From: Burkholderia sp. GAS332
GTDB lineage: Bacteria; Pseudomonadota; Gammaproteobacteria; Burkholderiales; Burkholderiaceae
Direction of reading: 5' to 3'
Length of the DNA stretch: 64,000 nucleotides
Assembly (NCBI GenBank): GCA_900142905.1
Contig: FSRV01000001.1
Coordinates: 1,054,001-1,118,000 of the forward strand
Shown: positions 57,683-62,404 of the stretch, piece by piece
Numbering within the stretch: position 1 is the stretch's first letter
How the letters are laid out: each line of letters begins with the position of its first letter
The notes under the pieces: generated by a model
Told to the model about the DNA's origin: nothing
The model's input: the letters and a program-made list of their open reading frames with translations, nothing else
Database searches by the model: none
Made by a program: the position numbers and the translations under genes

Positions 57683-58290
57683 GGTCACGCCTTTAAGGCG
57701 CGCGTTCGAGGCTATCCATCAAGCCTGTGTTTTGCGAGGTGCTGCCGCCATGTTCGGCGGCGCGCCTTGTGCGACTGTTTTTCTTGCGCCGGATTCCGCT
57801 TTGTCTTCGCCCGTCTATCAGGGCGGTAACGGGTCATTCGCCAGTCATCGGCGGCACGTTATCAAGATAGTCAGGATGACGAGTGATCATTGATCAGGGC
57901 GCGCAAGTCGCCCGAGAATTCGCCTGGCGATATTTCCGTCGTATCTGACGCGGTCCCTACTTCATCCAGCTTGTGCGAAATGCTCAATGCGCAGGTCGAG
58001 CGATTTATCCATCTAGCTATCTCCATATTGTCGCGCTGCTCGATGTTGTATTCGCGCGAACTCCACGCAGATTGAGAAACGTCCGCACGCGTCATGCTTG
58101 AGTCAGATTGATGCGTTTTTGCCTTATCTGAAATCTTTTATTTCGCGACTGGCGCGTCCATCCGGACAAGTCATTCGTTATCGATTTATCTCGATTTAAA
58201 GTCCGTCAGTGCGACACTTGAATGCTTCGTTTAGCGGCTAATCCGCGCGATAATCTGCGGCTGTTTTGGATTTGCATGGAGCATGCACGT
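57683..58290. other. Non-coding gap before the DUF2968-like gene
   Basis: About 600 bp without a convincing gene. A GCCGCC-ATGTTC-GGCGGC hairpin lies near 57746. The segment 58100-58210 is AT-rich and should hold the promoter of the next gene, but no hexamer pair is clear. A minus-strand frame of 74 codons at 57871-58095 has no ribosome site. Confidence 0.4.
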
Positions 58291-59007
58291 ATGAAGTACC
58301 CCTTAATTGTACGGCGCGCCATGCTGCTCGCGGCCTCGTGTGCGCTGTTGCAGCATGGTGGTTTGGTGCTGGCAGCGCAAAGCGGCGAGGCTGCTCCTCT
58401 GGTCGGCACGCGACCTGCCATGAACACGCTAACGCCGCAGCCGGTCGCCGCGGCGCTGCGCAGCGCGGCATCAAGCACGCCGGCTACCGCCAGCGATGCG
58501 CAAGGCAATGTAGCCGAACTGATGCAGATGATTCACGATGCGAAGCTGAGCGAGTTGCGCACCACGTATAACGGCAGTTACGGCGCGAGTCTGTTCTTCT
58601 ATCCGCAGGAAATGACGTACTACGTCGCGCTCTTCCAGGATAAGCATTTCTGGCGCGTGATCAAGTCGGAGGACGTAGGCCGCGCTGAAGCGGTCTATGC
58701 CGGCTTCGTCCAGCAGACGGCGCAACTCGCGGACGTCGAGATTCGCCGCACGCAGTTACAAGCGCAGAAGGCGTATATCGAAGACATCATCGCGTTGTCG
58801 GAAGATCGCGCGAAACGGTTGCAGGCTGATCTCGACGTCGCGCGCACGCAGCAGGCCAAGGTCAACGACTACCAGCGGCAGACGCAAGGCGAGGCGGTTG
58901 CGCTGCACGCGGAAAAGGAAAAGGCGCAGGCGCAGTTGCGTCAGGTGCAGGGCGAAGTGATGCAGTTGCAGCGGCAAACCGAGTTCGGATTGCCAACACA
59001 GAAGTAG
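58291..59007 (+). CDS. DUF2968-like secreted coiled-coil protein
   Basis: A 238-residue protein with a signal peptide (cleavage near VLA|AQS). A Ser/Ala linker precedes VAELMQMIHDAKLSELRTTYNGSYGASLFFYPQEMTYYVALFQDKHFWRVIK, typical of DUF2968. The remainder (about 145-232) is a long coiled coil rich in Gln, Ala, Lys and Glu. Function unknown. Its terminator, immediately downstream, has been split by the mobile element at 59042. Confidence 0.78.
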   Translation: MKYPLIVRRAMLLAASCALLQHGGLVLAAQSGEAAPLVGTRPAMNTLTPQPVAAALRSAASSTPATASDAQGNVAELMQMIHDAKLSELRTTYNGSYGASLFFYPQEMTYYVALFQDKHFWRVIKSEDVGRAEAVYAGFVQQTAQLADVEIRRTQLQAQKAYIEDIIALSEDRAKRLQADLDVARTQQAKVNDYQRQTQGEAVALHAEKEKAQAQLRQVQGEVMQLQRQTEFGLPTQK

Positions 59008-59020
59008 GCGTATGAGCGCA

Positions 59021-59041
59021 AAAAAGCCCGGCCATTCACAG
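59021..59041 (+). terminator. Left half of the terminator split by the mobile element
   Basis: AAAGCCCGGC plus the loop sequence CATTCACA. The matching half GCCGGGCTTT is at 60876-60885. Joining the two sides while keeping one copy of CCATTCACAG restores a perfect 10-bp stem with an 8-nt loop and T/A runs on both sides. Confidence 0.85.
59032..59041 (+). repeat. Target-site duplication, left copy
   Basis: CCATTCACAG, repeated directly at 60867-60876. Because the outermost bases of the element match the flanks, the true duplication may be 10 to 12 bp. Confidence 0.88.
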
Positions 59042-59066
59042 CTACCCGTACCACAAAGGTGTTGGT
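59042..59066 (+). repeat. Terminal inverted repeat, left
   Basis: 25 bp beginning CTACCCGTACCACAAAGG and ending GTTGGT, identical in reverse complement to 60842-60866. Similarity stops abruptly inside. Confidence 0.92.
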
Positions 59067-59090
59067 AAACGGGCAGGCGTAGTGATTACT

Positions 59091-59118
59091 GCGAGCCTCT
59101 TCGGAGGCTCGCTTTTTT
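59091..59118 (+). terminator. Terminator just inside the left end of the element
   Basis: Nine-base-pair stem GCGAGCCTC/GAGGCTCGC closed by a TTCG tetraloop and followed by six T on the plus strand. It faces transcription entering from the DUF2968-like gene, antisense to the Fic gene. Confidence 0.88.
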
Positions 59119-59255
59119 ACGGACGTTGAAAGCCCATACGAGCCTTGGCCAAGCGGCGTCGACGAAAGAACGGTCGTGCAGCGCTGCACGCGCAACGGCG
59201 CAAAGCTCTTTGGCCTGTCACAAATGGCTTGACGTCCTTCTTGTCCGTGCGACGG

Positions 59256-59852
59256 CTAAGCAGTACTTCGCACGAAGACTAGGAGCAAACTGTAGTCACC
59301 CTTATCCGCCGCACGCAAGGCGGTTAAGTAATCCGATCGGGCGTTATCCGCTTTAACCAATGTCCCGCCGCCGCCCCACGAAAATGGCTCTTGTTTCATG
59401 CTGCGCAAGAGCGCATCAGCCATCATTCGTGAGTGTCGACCATTGCCGTTTGCAAAGGGATGAATCCACACCAGCTCGCGGTGAAATCGTGCGGCAATCC
59501 CATCGGGAGGGAATGTGTCGTTGTCGACCCACCACCGCGTGTTATCGAAAAGGTTTCTCAGTTTGACGCTGACCTGCGTCCAGTCACATCCGATGTTCTT
59601 GTCGGACTTGCGGAACGTGCCTGCCCACGACCAGGTCTGGTCGAACATTTTCTTGTGAAGGTTGCGACAGAACTCTTCACTGAGGACATCGACCTTGCGT
59701 TGACGGCGAGCCCATTGCACGGCTTGCAGGATGTTTTCCTGCTCCCAGTCATTCAGATCGCCCTTGGTGGTCAGGTGCGTCGGTATCAGCTCTGCAAGCT
59801 CGTCAGGGTCGAGCGGTGTCTGGCCGTCCTGTTCGTCTAAATCTATCTCCAT
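59256..59852 (-). CDS. Fic-domain protein, mobile mystery protein B type
   Basis: A 198-residue Fic protein. The active-site motif HPFANGNGRHSR starts at His131; Asn stands where the canonical motif has Asp/Glu, as I recall for this subfamily. The N-terminus TPLDPDELAELIPTHLTTKGDLNDWEQENILQA is typical of the group. Fic proteins transfer AMP or other nucleotide moieties to target proteins and often serve as toxins. Its start lies 10 nt inside the end of the HTH gene, so translation is coupled. The pair order (HTH first, Fic second) is that of the TIGR mobile mystery A/B families, known to sit near mobile DNA. Confidence 0.88.
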   Translation of the reverse strand: MEIDLDEQDGQTPLDPDELAELIPTHLTTKGDLNDWEQENILQAVQWARRQRKVDVLSEEFCRNLHKKMFDQTWSWAGTFRKSDKNIGCDWTQVSVKLRNLFDNTRWWVDNDTFPPDGIAARFHRELVWIHPFANGNGRHSRMMADALLRSMKQEPFSWGGGGTLVKADNARSDYLTALRAADKGDYSLLLVFVRSTA

Positions 59853-60304
59853 AGGTCGGACCAGCGGCCCCGGAGTAGTTCAGCCGTTCTCTGCTCAACC
59901 TGTTTGCGAAGTCGGTCAGTTGCCGGACGTTGGTCTTCCAGACTCATGGTGTGTGCAACGCCACTCACTTCCTGCAGGGCGATTGAGCGCGCCCGGTCTT
60001 CGACCACTTGAGTCAGTGGCTTTCTGGGCACCAGAGCATAGACCAGCTCGCAGTCCAGCCCGTCAGCCAACTTGCGCAGTTGTCCGAGCGTGATTCGCTC
60101 CTCAGCTTCCGCCAACTCCGACTTGTGCAGGGTCGAACCGGTAATGCCTAACCTAGCGGCTTGCTGTCGCTCGGTGAGCCCTAACGACTCTCGGATGGCC
60201 TTTAGCCATCCACGCGGCGGAGGCCGACGGTTGGTCAAATCCGAGTACGCTGCGACCGACGCCTGGACCTGCTCAAGCCGGAGTTGCCTCATTCTGGAAT
60301 CCAT
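59843..60304 (-). CDS. HTH protein, mobile mystery protein A type (putative antitoxin/repressor)
   Basis: A 153-residue protein with an XRE-like helix-turn-helix at about residues 43-70 (LTERQQAARLGITGSTLHKSELAE) preceded by RRPPPRGWLKAIRESLG, as in mobile mystery protein A. The C-terminus ends in a charged helix (LRKQVEQRTAELLRGRW). It is expected to bind the long inverted repeat that abuts its start codon and perhaps to restrain the Fic partner. I see no clear Fic-inhibitory helix motif (S/T-x3-E-G/N), so direct inhibition is unproven. Confidence 0.86.
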   Translation of the reverse strand: MDSRMRQLRLEQVQASVAAYSDLTNRRPPPRGWLKAIRESLGLTERQQAARLGITGSTLHKSELAEAEERITLGQLRKLADGLDCELVYALVPRKPLTQVVEDRARSIALQEVSGVAHTMSLEDQRPATDRLRKQVEQRTAELLRGRWSDLWR

Positions 60305-60306
60305 TC

Positions 60307-60367
60307 TGCTGGCCTATGGGCTATCAAGAATGCAAAAAATGATAGCCCATAGGCCAGCAACTATCAA
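60307..60367 (-). promoter_or_regulatory. Promoter and long palindromic operator of the HTH/Fic pair
   Basis: Perfect 20-bp inverted repeat: TGCTGGCCTATGGGCTATCA (60307-60326) and its complement at 60340-60359, 13-bp spacer. On the minus strand a promoter overlaps it: -35 TTGATA (60362-60367), 17-bp spacer, -10 TATCAT (60339-60344). The inner arm begins 3 bp before the ATG. Binding of the HTH protein would block both transcription and, as RNA, the arm could fold over the start. Confidence 0.82.
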
Positions 60368-60475
60368 GTTTATGCTTCATCGTAGAGAATCAAAAAAATG
60401 CATATGGCGTCGTCATAGTGACGCAAAGGTGAATAATGTGCTTCACTATATGGCATCAGTTTTCGCGTAATTGCT

Positions 60476-60819
60476 TCATTTTGGAGAAGCAAATTTCTTT
60501 GACTTGCTGCACCGCAAGCCAGCGATTGCGAGGTAGTTTGCTTCGAACATCGGTCGCGCGGTCCGATAAAAGAACGTCCGAACATTGACGATTTGCGTAT
60601 GTAGCACCTGGGCGTAGCTCTGTATTTCCGCCGAAATTCTTTGAGTCTCGGCCAGTTTGCTTTGTATTTCGGAAGCGAGTCTCTGAAGCTGGTCTCAAAG
60701 CTCTTGTTCCGCGCTTCTACCCCATGCTCCGGACTCAACGTCGAGGAATCTTGCGCCCGCCACCTCCCGGAAATATCTCCGGCAAGAAAAAGACGCGCAA
60801 TCCCCTTCGGGACGCCGGT
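60476..60819 (-). pseudogene. Frameshifted remnant of an unknown gene
   Basis: A minus-strand frame opens at 60819 without a start codon (TGVPKGIARLFLAGDISGR). It then appears to shift frame near 60690 into a coiled-coil-like stretch (LQRLASEIQSKLAETQRISA) ending at a TGA at 60476-60478. The heptad pattern and composition look like true protein rather than noise. No family recognised. It occupies the space between the operator and the right end of the element, where a lost mobility or accessory gene might have been. Confidence 0.4.
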
Positions 60820-60841
60820 CTAAGCGTTAATTAGCTCAAAA

Positions 60842-60866
60842 ACCAACACCTTTGTGGTACGGGTAG
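60842..60866 (-). repeat. Terminal inverted repeat, right
   Basis: Perfect reverse complement of the left end over 25 bp, ending GTGGTACGGGTAG. Confidence 0.92.
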
Positions 60867-60876
60867 CCATTCACAG
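60867..60876 (+). repeat. Target-site duplication, right copy
   Basis: CCATTCACAG, identical to 59032-59041, followed by the second terminator arm CCGGGCTTT. Confidence 0.88.
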
Positions 60877-60917
60877 CCGGGCTTTATTTGCAACTCAATT
60901 TTGCGATAACGACGCGC

Positions 60918-62123
60918 TTACTTCGTGAACTGATCGGGAACCTCGGTCACGCGGCGTTGTGAGATGCGATTGATCCATTCGGTCCCGCCGGTTCCATGTG
61001 AATCGATCGACGAAGCAGGGCGCGATGGCGGCGCAATATTGCGCAGGTGTGTGGCGGCCGATGTGGTCATCGACGCGTATTCGCCGGTGCCGAGTTGCGA
61101 TGGCGCAAGTGGCGAGTAAGGGCCCGCCGACGATGGCGCCGGTGACGTTCGTTGCGCGATCGCCGGCACAGCAATTTGCGACACTTCGGCGTTCACCGGC
61201 GAGTTGCGTGGCAACTGCGATGACAACTGCGGTGCCAACCGCGTCGCGATGGTGGGCTGCGAACGGCGGACGCTTCTTTCGTGCCGGTTCGCGGCGTCTT
61301 TGCGTTGCCTATCCTGGCGGCGCGATATGTTCTTGCCGGCTGTTGCGCGCGCCGGCGTTGCTTTGGCTGGCGTGACGATTTTCGTAGCGGGACTTGCCGA
61401 GAAATCGTGTAGCGGAGCCGCGGCAAGCGCGTTCGGCAAAATTTCAGGCGATGCGGGTACCGATGCGGGTGCGGACCCAGACGCGCCTGCCACGTACACG
61501 GGCGACGACGCGGCGCTCGGTGCAAGCACCGCTGCACGGTTGCTGGCGGGGGCATTGGAAACGACAGCGGCGTCAAACGAGTGACGAGGCGCCAGTTGCG
61601 CTTCCTGGCGGACCGGGGCCTTGGCCGCTGGTTTGACATCGCTAATCGTGTGACGCTGCGCCAGATGATCGAACGCAATCCAGGCAAGCATCGCGGCGCC
61701 GCCGAGCGCACAGGCGCCACCCGCTAGCGCGCCCCAGTGCGCCTGTGCGACGCGCGGCGAGGCCGAAGTCGCCGGTGCGCTAACCGGCGAGAAAGCCGCG
61801 GCTTCGGTGGACAATCGCAAAGATTCGTCGACCGGTGCGTCGAACACGGTTGTCGAGGGAGCAACTGAGGTGAAACCTGATGACGCAGCCGGCGGCAAGC
61901 GCCGCGATTCCCACTGGCAGAGCGCGCGGATGGTCTCCGCATTCAGGCAAAAGGTACGTAACACGGCCGCATAGAGCGCCTTGAGTTCAGCTCTCAAACT
62001 GTAGCCCGGCGGCAGCAGTGCCCAATCGCGGCCGAATGGCGGGGGCAGCAGGCGACCGAGCGGCGACAGGCTCGGCAGCGCCATGGAGCCTTCGATGAGT
62101 GTGAGGGGGATGGTGGTCGACAT
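60918..62123 (-). CDS. Single-pass membrane hypothetical protein, Ala/Ser/Pro-rich
   Basis: A 401-residue protein. Residues 1-120 are soluble and include a compact segment (PPGYSLRAELKALYAAVLRTFCLNAETIRALCQWESRR). One membrane helix lies at about 145-165 (WGALAGGACALGGAAMLAWIAF), and the remaining 235 residues are Ala/Ser/Pro-rich and probably disordered outside the membrane. This N-in layout recalls FecR/anti-sigma-like anchors, but no motif confirms it. Start ATG 62123 chosen by a weak GAAGAAA site. Its terminator was shared with the DUF2968-like gene before the element inserted. Confidence 0.62.
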   Translation of the reverse strand: MSTTIPLTLIEGSMALPSLSPLGRLLPPPFGRDWALLPPGYSLRAELKALYAAVLRTFCLNAETIRALCQWESRRLPPAASSGFTSVAPSTTVFDAPVDESLRLSTEAAAFSPVSAPATSASPRVAQAHWGALAGGACALGGAAMLAWIAFDHLAQRHTISDVKPAAKAPVRQEAQLAPRHSFDAAVVSNAPASNRAAVLAPSAASSPVYVAGASGSAPASVPASPEILPNALAAAPLHDFSASPATKIVTPAKATPARATAGKNISRRQDRQRKDAANRHERSVRRSQPTIATRLAPQLSSQLPRNSPVNAEVSQIAVPAIAQRTSPAPSSAGPYSPLAPSQLGTGEYASMTTSAATHLRNIAPPSRPASSIDSHGTGGTEWINRISQRRVTEVPDQFTK

Positions 62124-62404
62124 CGGTTTCTTCGCAGCGCCTCGTAGTGGGGCCGCGGGCTGGCGGCTCAGGGGGCTCTGGCTTCGGAGCGATGCGCATG
62201 AACGCGGTACACAACGCCATAGGGAAACGCCGTACTCAGGCCGAGCACGCCGCTGCATGAGCGGTCACTGTGAAGCCAACGGGGTGCGGAAGATGATGCC
62301 TGGAAGCGGCCGAACTAACGATCGGATAGTTCCGAAAAAGAAGCGCCTTGCCGTCCTGAGTTCGGCCCCGCTCTGGACGATGATCGAACCAGGGTGCGCT
62401 TATC

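Follow-up and report, generated by a model that had tools for sequence, protein, structure and literature searches.

An 1825-bp element carrying a Fic/helix-turn-helix (HTH) gene pair lies between two reading frames transcribed towards each other in a 64,000-nucleotide stretch of DNA from Burkholderia sp. GAS332, which we refer to at its full length as the window (Table 1). The element is bounded by terminal inverted repeats (TIRs) that are complementary to each other at 25/25 positions and lie 1775 bp apart, and it is flanked by two copies of a 10-bp direct repeat. This repeat is the loop region of a transcription terminator whose arms now flank the element on both sides. A sequence-only reading of the window had described the TIRs, the repeat and the split arms, and direct reading together with a repeat search confirms them base for base. 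It had also held that removing the element and one repeat copy restores the hairpin; the resulting 43-nt empty site folds into a single hairpin of -23.2 kcal/mol (z -5.56, with 0 of 200 shuffles as good). As likewise read from the letters, the element contains genes for mobile mystery proteins A and B, both above the cutoffs of their families (TIGR02612 and TIGR02613), and no recombinase family was found in its scanned open reading frames (ORFs). With TIRs, a target duplication, passenger genes and no transposase found, it has the make-up of a non-autonomous DNA transposon resembling the mobile insertion cassettes (MICs).

Table 1. Features of the element and its surroundings, in window positions.
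Feature	Position	Strand	Basis
Gene for DUF2968 protein, transcribed towards the terminator	58222..59007	+	
Left arm of the interrupted terminator, AAAGCCCGGC, with an A-run before the arm	59023..59032	+	direct reading; restored hairpin; intact orthologous terminators
Target-site duplication, left copy, 10 bp, CCATTCACAG	59032..59041	+	direct reading, repeat search
Non-autonomous transposable element, 1825 bp	59042..60866	.	direct reading, repeat search, empty sites
Left TIR, 25 bp, identical to the TIR of the Paraburkholderia elongata transposase-bearing elements	59042..59066	+	repeat search
Left-end inward intrinsic terminator, strong, GCGAGCCTC-TTCG-GAGGCTCGC followed by T6	59091..59118	+	stem rule, folding
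Mobile mystery protein B (Fic domain), motif HPFANGNGRHSR	59256..59852	-	TIGR02613, 251 vs cutoff 124.4 bits
Mobile mystery protein A (HTH)	59843..60304	-	TIGR02612, 136.2 vs cutoff 122.6 bits
Perfect 20-bp inverted repeat with 13-bp spacer immediately upstream of A, probable operator of A	60307..60359	.	repeat search, folding
Right-end inward terminator, imperfect hairpin followed by a T-rich run on the - strand	60785..60821	-	folding
Right TIR, 25 bp	60842..60866	-	repeat search
Target-site duplication, right copy, 10 bp, CCATTCACAG	60867..60876	+	direct reading, repeat search
Right arm of the interrupted terminator, GCCGGGCTTT	60876..60885	+	direct reading
Other flanking ORF, transcribed towards the terminator, without Pfam or NCBIfam match	60918..62258	-	

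The terminator split by the element is uninterrupted in sister species. The joined flanks were searched in 141 genomes of the genus including the window's own, and 139 matched somewhere, many in the left gene only; 30 loci returned from the longer list, the window's own among them, were realigned. Of these, 25 read straight through the site without the element, and 20 of the 25 contain one uninterrupted hairpin as judged by eye, while L124, L128, L130 and L132 have a second hairpin after the first, which has decayed in L128. In L131 (G125), from another species, the hairpin orthologous to the window's terminator is occupied by another insert, a few dozen bases long, that has an inverted repeat of its own. 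The remaining five loci are the window's own (L127), three that align only up to the hairpin (L133-L135) and one that stops short of the site (L149). Empty sites with an intact terminator, which the sequence-only reading had proposed as a check, thus exist for the window element, and they exist also for a transposase-bearing copy with the same ends (L021, described below): among 8 of 20 returned loci that were realigned, G017 (88% over the whole 600-nt query), G029 and G009 have an uninterrupted terminator with both sides aligned.

The ends of the element recur elsewhere in the genus. A TIR pattern allowing up to 2 mismatches was found in 13/144 genus genomes including the window's own, whereas the reversed control gave 0/144, so the TIRs are not a product of chance. 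Within the window's genome the 81-bp left end is complete at this locus only, with no further complete copies. When the whole element was searched against 59 genomes including its own, 11 matched somewhere, and other copies were recovered with duplications at unrelated sites. Among these, Paraburkholderia elongata 5N (G019) contains two 2072-bp elements, L021 and L022, with 25-bp TIRs identical to those of the window and a left end in which 79 bp, including the terminator, are 88% alike. Each has one ORF of 637 amino acids (aa) and no A/B pair, each is flanked by a 10-bp or 9-bp duplication, and both lie in terminator loops. An autonomous partner with the same ends had been guessed from the window sequence, and these two elements, sharing the TIRs and encoding a candidate transposase, correspond to it.

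The 637-aa protein is presumably the transposase of these elements. Twelve aligned homologues, 33-46% identical to the first, share D258, D417 and E514 in 12/12 rows, and the elements of the aligned relatives have similar TIRs and 9-10 bp duplications. All 12 match the NCBIfam insertion sequence (IS) IS1 transposase model at E<=0.01; the match of L021 to that model (NF033558) scores 33.3 bits against a cutoff of 100 and covers residues 158-231 only, which places it outside the IS1 family as the model defines it. An N-terminal zinc-binding domain is recognised (NF050000, 29.9 vs 28 bits; 11/12 members at E<=0.01), PF03811 matches 1/12 members, and no Pfam catalytic domain was found in the 12. 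In a PDB sequence search with the candidate transposase family (A1), nearly all of the proteins among 60 of 128 matches were zinc-finger proteins. Since the IS1 match of L021 is partial and below cutoff and no Pfam catalytic domain was found, the proteins apparently form an IS1-related, much larger (~600 aa) and unnamed family. Counting fragments and zinc-ribbon-only matches, homologues occur in 6/141 genomes of the genus and 6/399 of the order, and, with the alignment as query, in 11/369 of the class and 31/398 of the phylum. Relatives were also found in 130 plasmid records, 90 of them from Enterococcus (25-26% identity among those listed), and the five Pseudomonadota plasmid homologues that we inspected are all annotated as hypothetical protein. 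No relative was confirmed in viral contigs, and no plasmid DNA similar to the window element was matched.

Two further loci with homologues of this protein were noted. On the Enterococcus faecalis plasmid pEF9594.2 (L200, 1832-5107), 49-nt inverted repeats that are 86% complementary enclose dfrG together with a distant homologue (~25%), which is annotated as insertion element protein, and relatives occur in many Enterococcus plasmids, some Staphylococcus plasmids and two Staphylococcus phage records. On plasmid 2 of Polaromonas sp. JS666 (L088), a homologue and one end lie beside a terminator-like arm, followed by AAA, HNH and other genes, maybe cargo; the second end was not found.

The family tends to insert at terminators. 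Element ends were defined by inverted repeats together with duplications or by likeness to the window TIR, and hairpins were not used, which left 27 insertions with both ends at 26 sites. A terminator hairpin is centred on the duplication in 18/27 under a strict rule and in 20/27 under a relaxed one, as against 5/1563 and 9/1563 positions 3' of ORFs (8-90 nt, ORFs of at least 200 aa) and 3/6750 and 6/6750 positions drawn at random from the same loci. L086 and L223, which look like terminators, had failed the strict rule before the relaxed one was formulated, and the background was run under each. A terminator-like hairpin was centred on the duplication in 15 of the first 21 insertions, compared with 3/6300 background positions; the eight collected after the strict rule had been fixed (L157, L159, L220-L225) gave 4/8 (strict) and 5/8 (relaxed), below the first set. 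In most passing sites the centre of the hairpin is no more than 0.5 nt from that of the duplication. The flanks of the 27 insertions are mutually unrelated with the sole exception of L026 and L157, without the latter of which the count is 18 or 20 of 26. These two (L026, 1991-3520; L157, 690-2224) are A/B elements that occupy one site in two species, with flanks 84-88% identical, and differ in TIR type; either this terminator region received two insertions or the element ends were exchanged. The check proposed in the sequence-only reading, whether other insertions also lie in terminator loops, came out in its favour for most of them.

The following loci were excluded before this count: L055, where the flanks mismatch and the element is near a contig end; L087, with two ends and different flanks; L066 and the decayed L023, which occupy the sites of L024 and L054; and eleven with one end found (L028, L052, L054, L058, L059, L060, L062, L063, L064, L067 and L088). 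No credible ends were found at L226-L234 (9 loci), L117-L119, L082 and L085. By eye, an A-run and a G+C arm stand beside the TIR in L028, L054, L059, L060, L062, L063, L088 and at both ends of L087; they do not in L052, L058 and L064, and L067 is doubtful.

The elements also bring terminators with them. RNA folding with bulges allowed detects an inward terminator within 130 bp at 46/54 ends, compared with 49/540 background windows, and at both ends of 20/27 elements. With a plain, stricter stem rule and a limit of 150 bp, an earlier set gave 36/46 ends versus 48/1380 windows. These inward terminators are presumably functional; with them in place, transcription entering from either neighbour should, as predicted from the sequence, stop soon after it reaches the element, and the elements seem to replace the terminator that they split. 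The sequence-only reading had viewed terminator hairpins as harmless landing sites. The preference for terminators that this implied is supported, and the idea itself was incomplete, as the elements carry inward terminators that could replace the broken one.

The gene pair inside the window element consists of adjacent genes that overlap by 10 bp on the minus strand. B matches PF02661 (52 vs 24 bits) and, in a PDB sequence search, FICD and other Fic proteins (best E 9.7e-07); its best PADLOC match is PDC-S04 (E 2.5e-20), and A has no PADLOC match. The usual motif of Fic AMP transferases is HPFx[D/E]GNGRxxR. In B of all 15 genus loci the motif is HPF[P/A]NGNGRHxR, with N in the acidic position. 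Among these 15 orthologous loci, four (L152, L153, the window's own L160, and L163) have as their best inverted repeat one with 19-22 bp arms and the same spacing. Related but shorter repeats occur in L154, L155, L157 and L159, and at the remaining seven loci the best repeat is short or situated elsewhere. Its position upstream of A and its likeness in several orthologues suggest that the repeat is an operator for A, which we regard as probable. Judging from the protein families, the Fic/HTH pair most likely acts as a toxin-antitoxin-like cassette that regulates itself and aids persistence of the element, in line with the toxin-antitoxin or addiction unit proposed earlier; gene order, the HTH domain and the probable operator constitute the support for it. 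From this operator to the right end, ~400 bp (60370-60790) contain no family-matched gene, and part of this segment is kept in the 358-bp L023.

Elements with window-type ends carry various passengers. They enclose the A/B pair in the window, L024, L026, L027 and others, an NTP_transf_8 nucleotidyltransferase in L025 and L061, and the candidate transposase alone in L021 and L022. L023 (2061-2418, 358 bp) retains just the two ends of an A/B element, resembling a deletion product of the miniature inverted-repeat transposable element kind, at the site that in L054 holds an A-gene-bearing element. With other end types, the transposase is accompanied by restriction-modification-like genes (L084, L081) or by a CoiA-nuclease/DUF6035 protein (L083), and in L070 remnants of the transposase are found together with a nucleotidyltransferase that belongs to a PADLOC candidate family. 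In L063, a Phd/YefM antitoxin gene that may lie inside an element stands beside the sole end found. Mobile mystery B exceeds its cutoff at 15 loci in 15/141 genus genomes. Five of these A/B loci have both window-type TIRs, two have one, two (L157, L159) have the CTAGCCGTTCTGTTAAAGAGTTG-like TIRs of another subfamily, and six have no recognisable TIRs, L161 among them with a possible decayed left end. The tally indicates at least two end types as carriers of the pair, which may also occur outside such an element. Of the earlier claim, the placement of an A/B pair in a TIR-bounded unit holds, whereas a tie of the pair to the window element does not, given the six loci without recognisable TIRs and the two with those of another subfamily.

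We consider it highly probable that the window unit is a trans-mobilised cargo transposon of a terminator-targeting DDE-type (Asp-Asp-Glu) family, with replacement of the terminator. A DDE-type transposase encoded by same-ended elements elsewhere in the genus, presumably the 637-aa protein acting in trans, would act on the 25-bp TIRs; it would recognise a palindrome or cruciform and insert the element into an intrinsic terminator, at its dyad centre or close to it, duplicating 9-10 bp. The broken terminator would be functionally replaced because the element ends carry inward terminators, and the Fic/HTH cassette may help the element to persist. On balance, though with less assurance, we also favour a wider reading in which this is an undescribed transposon family, extending from Burkholderiales to other Pseudomonadota, that specifically targets intrinsic-terminator loops. 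With a substitute terminator at each end, it would exchange one terminator for two, insulate the neighbouring genes and shuttle toxin-antitoxin-like and restriction genes, with cargo-only derivatives such as the window element using the same transposase.

A number of observations weigh against these readings. No transposase homologue was found in the window's own genome in the search of 141 genus genomes, which leaves current mobility without support, and single-sequence structure prediction gave a mean confidence (pLDDT) of 35 and was discarded, so it provides no DDE fold. Nine divergent homologues (L226-L234) lack credible TIRs and duplications, such that some homologues lie outside transposons; their open frames are ~480-530 aa, eight of them (L226-L233) are in one genus, and they are possibly a domesticated branch of the transposase. 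Seven of the 27 insertions have no terminator even under the relaxed rule (L070, L084, L089, L090, L157, L221 and L224), of which L070 and L084 are nonetheless hairpins lacking a qualifying T-run and L157 shares its site with the passing L026. The background positions were sampled from the same loci and are mutually non-independent. Finally, the right inward terminator of the window element is imperfect (z -1.41 for a 71-nt stretch, with 17/200 shuffles as good).

The choice of target might be explained differently if the transposase preferred any short palindrome, whose symmetry would suit a dimer, within intergenic DNA that is not essential; terminators would then be hit as the commonest palindromes there, and selection would remove insertions in genes. 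This concerns target choice only and is partly compatible with terminator targeting. The hairpins at L070 and L084 that fail the T-run rule are what it would lead one to expect, as is the centring of most passing hairpins to within half a nucleotide of the duplication. However, intergenic location alone does not yield 18-20 of 27, as the terminator pattern was found at just 5 or 9, and a stem score of at least 8 at 13, of the 1563 positions 3' of ORFs; moreover, 20/22 insertions with a stem score of at least 8 also have the A- or T-run. We regard a general preference for palindromes as a possible but less convincing account.

It is very improbable that the unit is a one-off genomic island moved by a tyrosine or serine recombinase, its repeats being products of chance or recombination. 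Although no recombinase was found inside it and machinery of its own was not seen, an island is contradicted by other species, in which these TIRs recur with duplications of 9-10 bp at unrelated sites, and the empty sites and the same-ended DDE-candidate partner also argue against one. Equally hard to credit is mobility driven by the A/B pair itself, to which its presence in two end types, the window type and that of L157 and L159, might point; window-type TIRs enclose other cargo or the candidate transposase without A/B, and we know of no recombinase activity of Fic domains. Least plausible is a structural RNA accounting for the inverted repeats, which had been named beforehand as a refutation: the repeat upstream of A folds very well, yet no Rfam family reaches its gathering score, four miRNA models that match this repeat fall far below theirs, and the TIRs recur as element ends 1775 bp apart.

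Among known systems, the window element may be compared with MICs such as MIC231 of Bacillus, in which IS-type ends and target duplications surround passenger genes without a transposase and the helper is presumed to be a full IS that shares these ends. The window element shares the IS-type ends, the duplications, the passenger genes in place of a transposase and a same-ended helper candidate, and differs in transposase family, host range and cargo; neither targeting of terminator loops nor inward terminators are among the features familiar from MICs. IS1 transposases are ~230 aa, and duplications of 9-10 bp are close to the IS1 range, whereas the candidate family is ~600 aa with the partial, sub-cutoff match given above. 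IS1272, of the IS1182 family, targets the palindromes of hairpins or terminators and replaces the inverted repeat; here, in contrast, the insertion splits the hairpin and duplicates 9-10 bp of its sequence, and the IS1182 model is absent from the NCBIfam and Pfam matches of the candidate transposase family. Group IIC introns are retroelements that recognise intrinsic terminators and insert next to the stem, unlike the TIR-bounded DNA element studied here, which lies in the loop with a duplication. As for the cargo, the names of TIGR02612 and TIGR02613 merely suggest a link to mobile DNA, whereas here the genes lie in a defined TIR-bounded carrier.

The mobile mystery A/B genes thereby gain a concrete carrier. 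Homologues of the candidate transposase are often annotated as hypothetical protein in the listed plasmid records, so the family is easily overlooked. If the proposed targeting is correct, the target choice of this transposase could be used to place DNA between genes while leaving them unbroken. Few mobile elements are known to aim at transcription terminators, and a DNA transposon family would then be added to them, with a low-cost design for insertion: hit a terminator, and bring terminators along.

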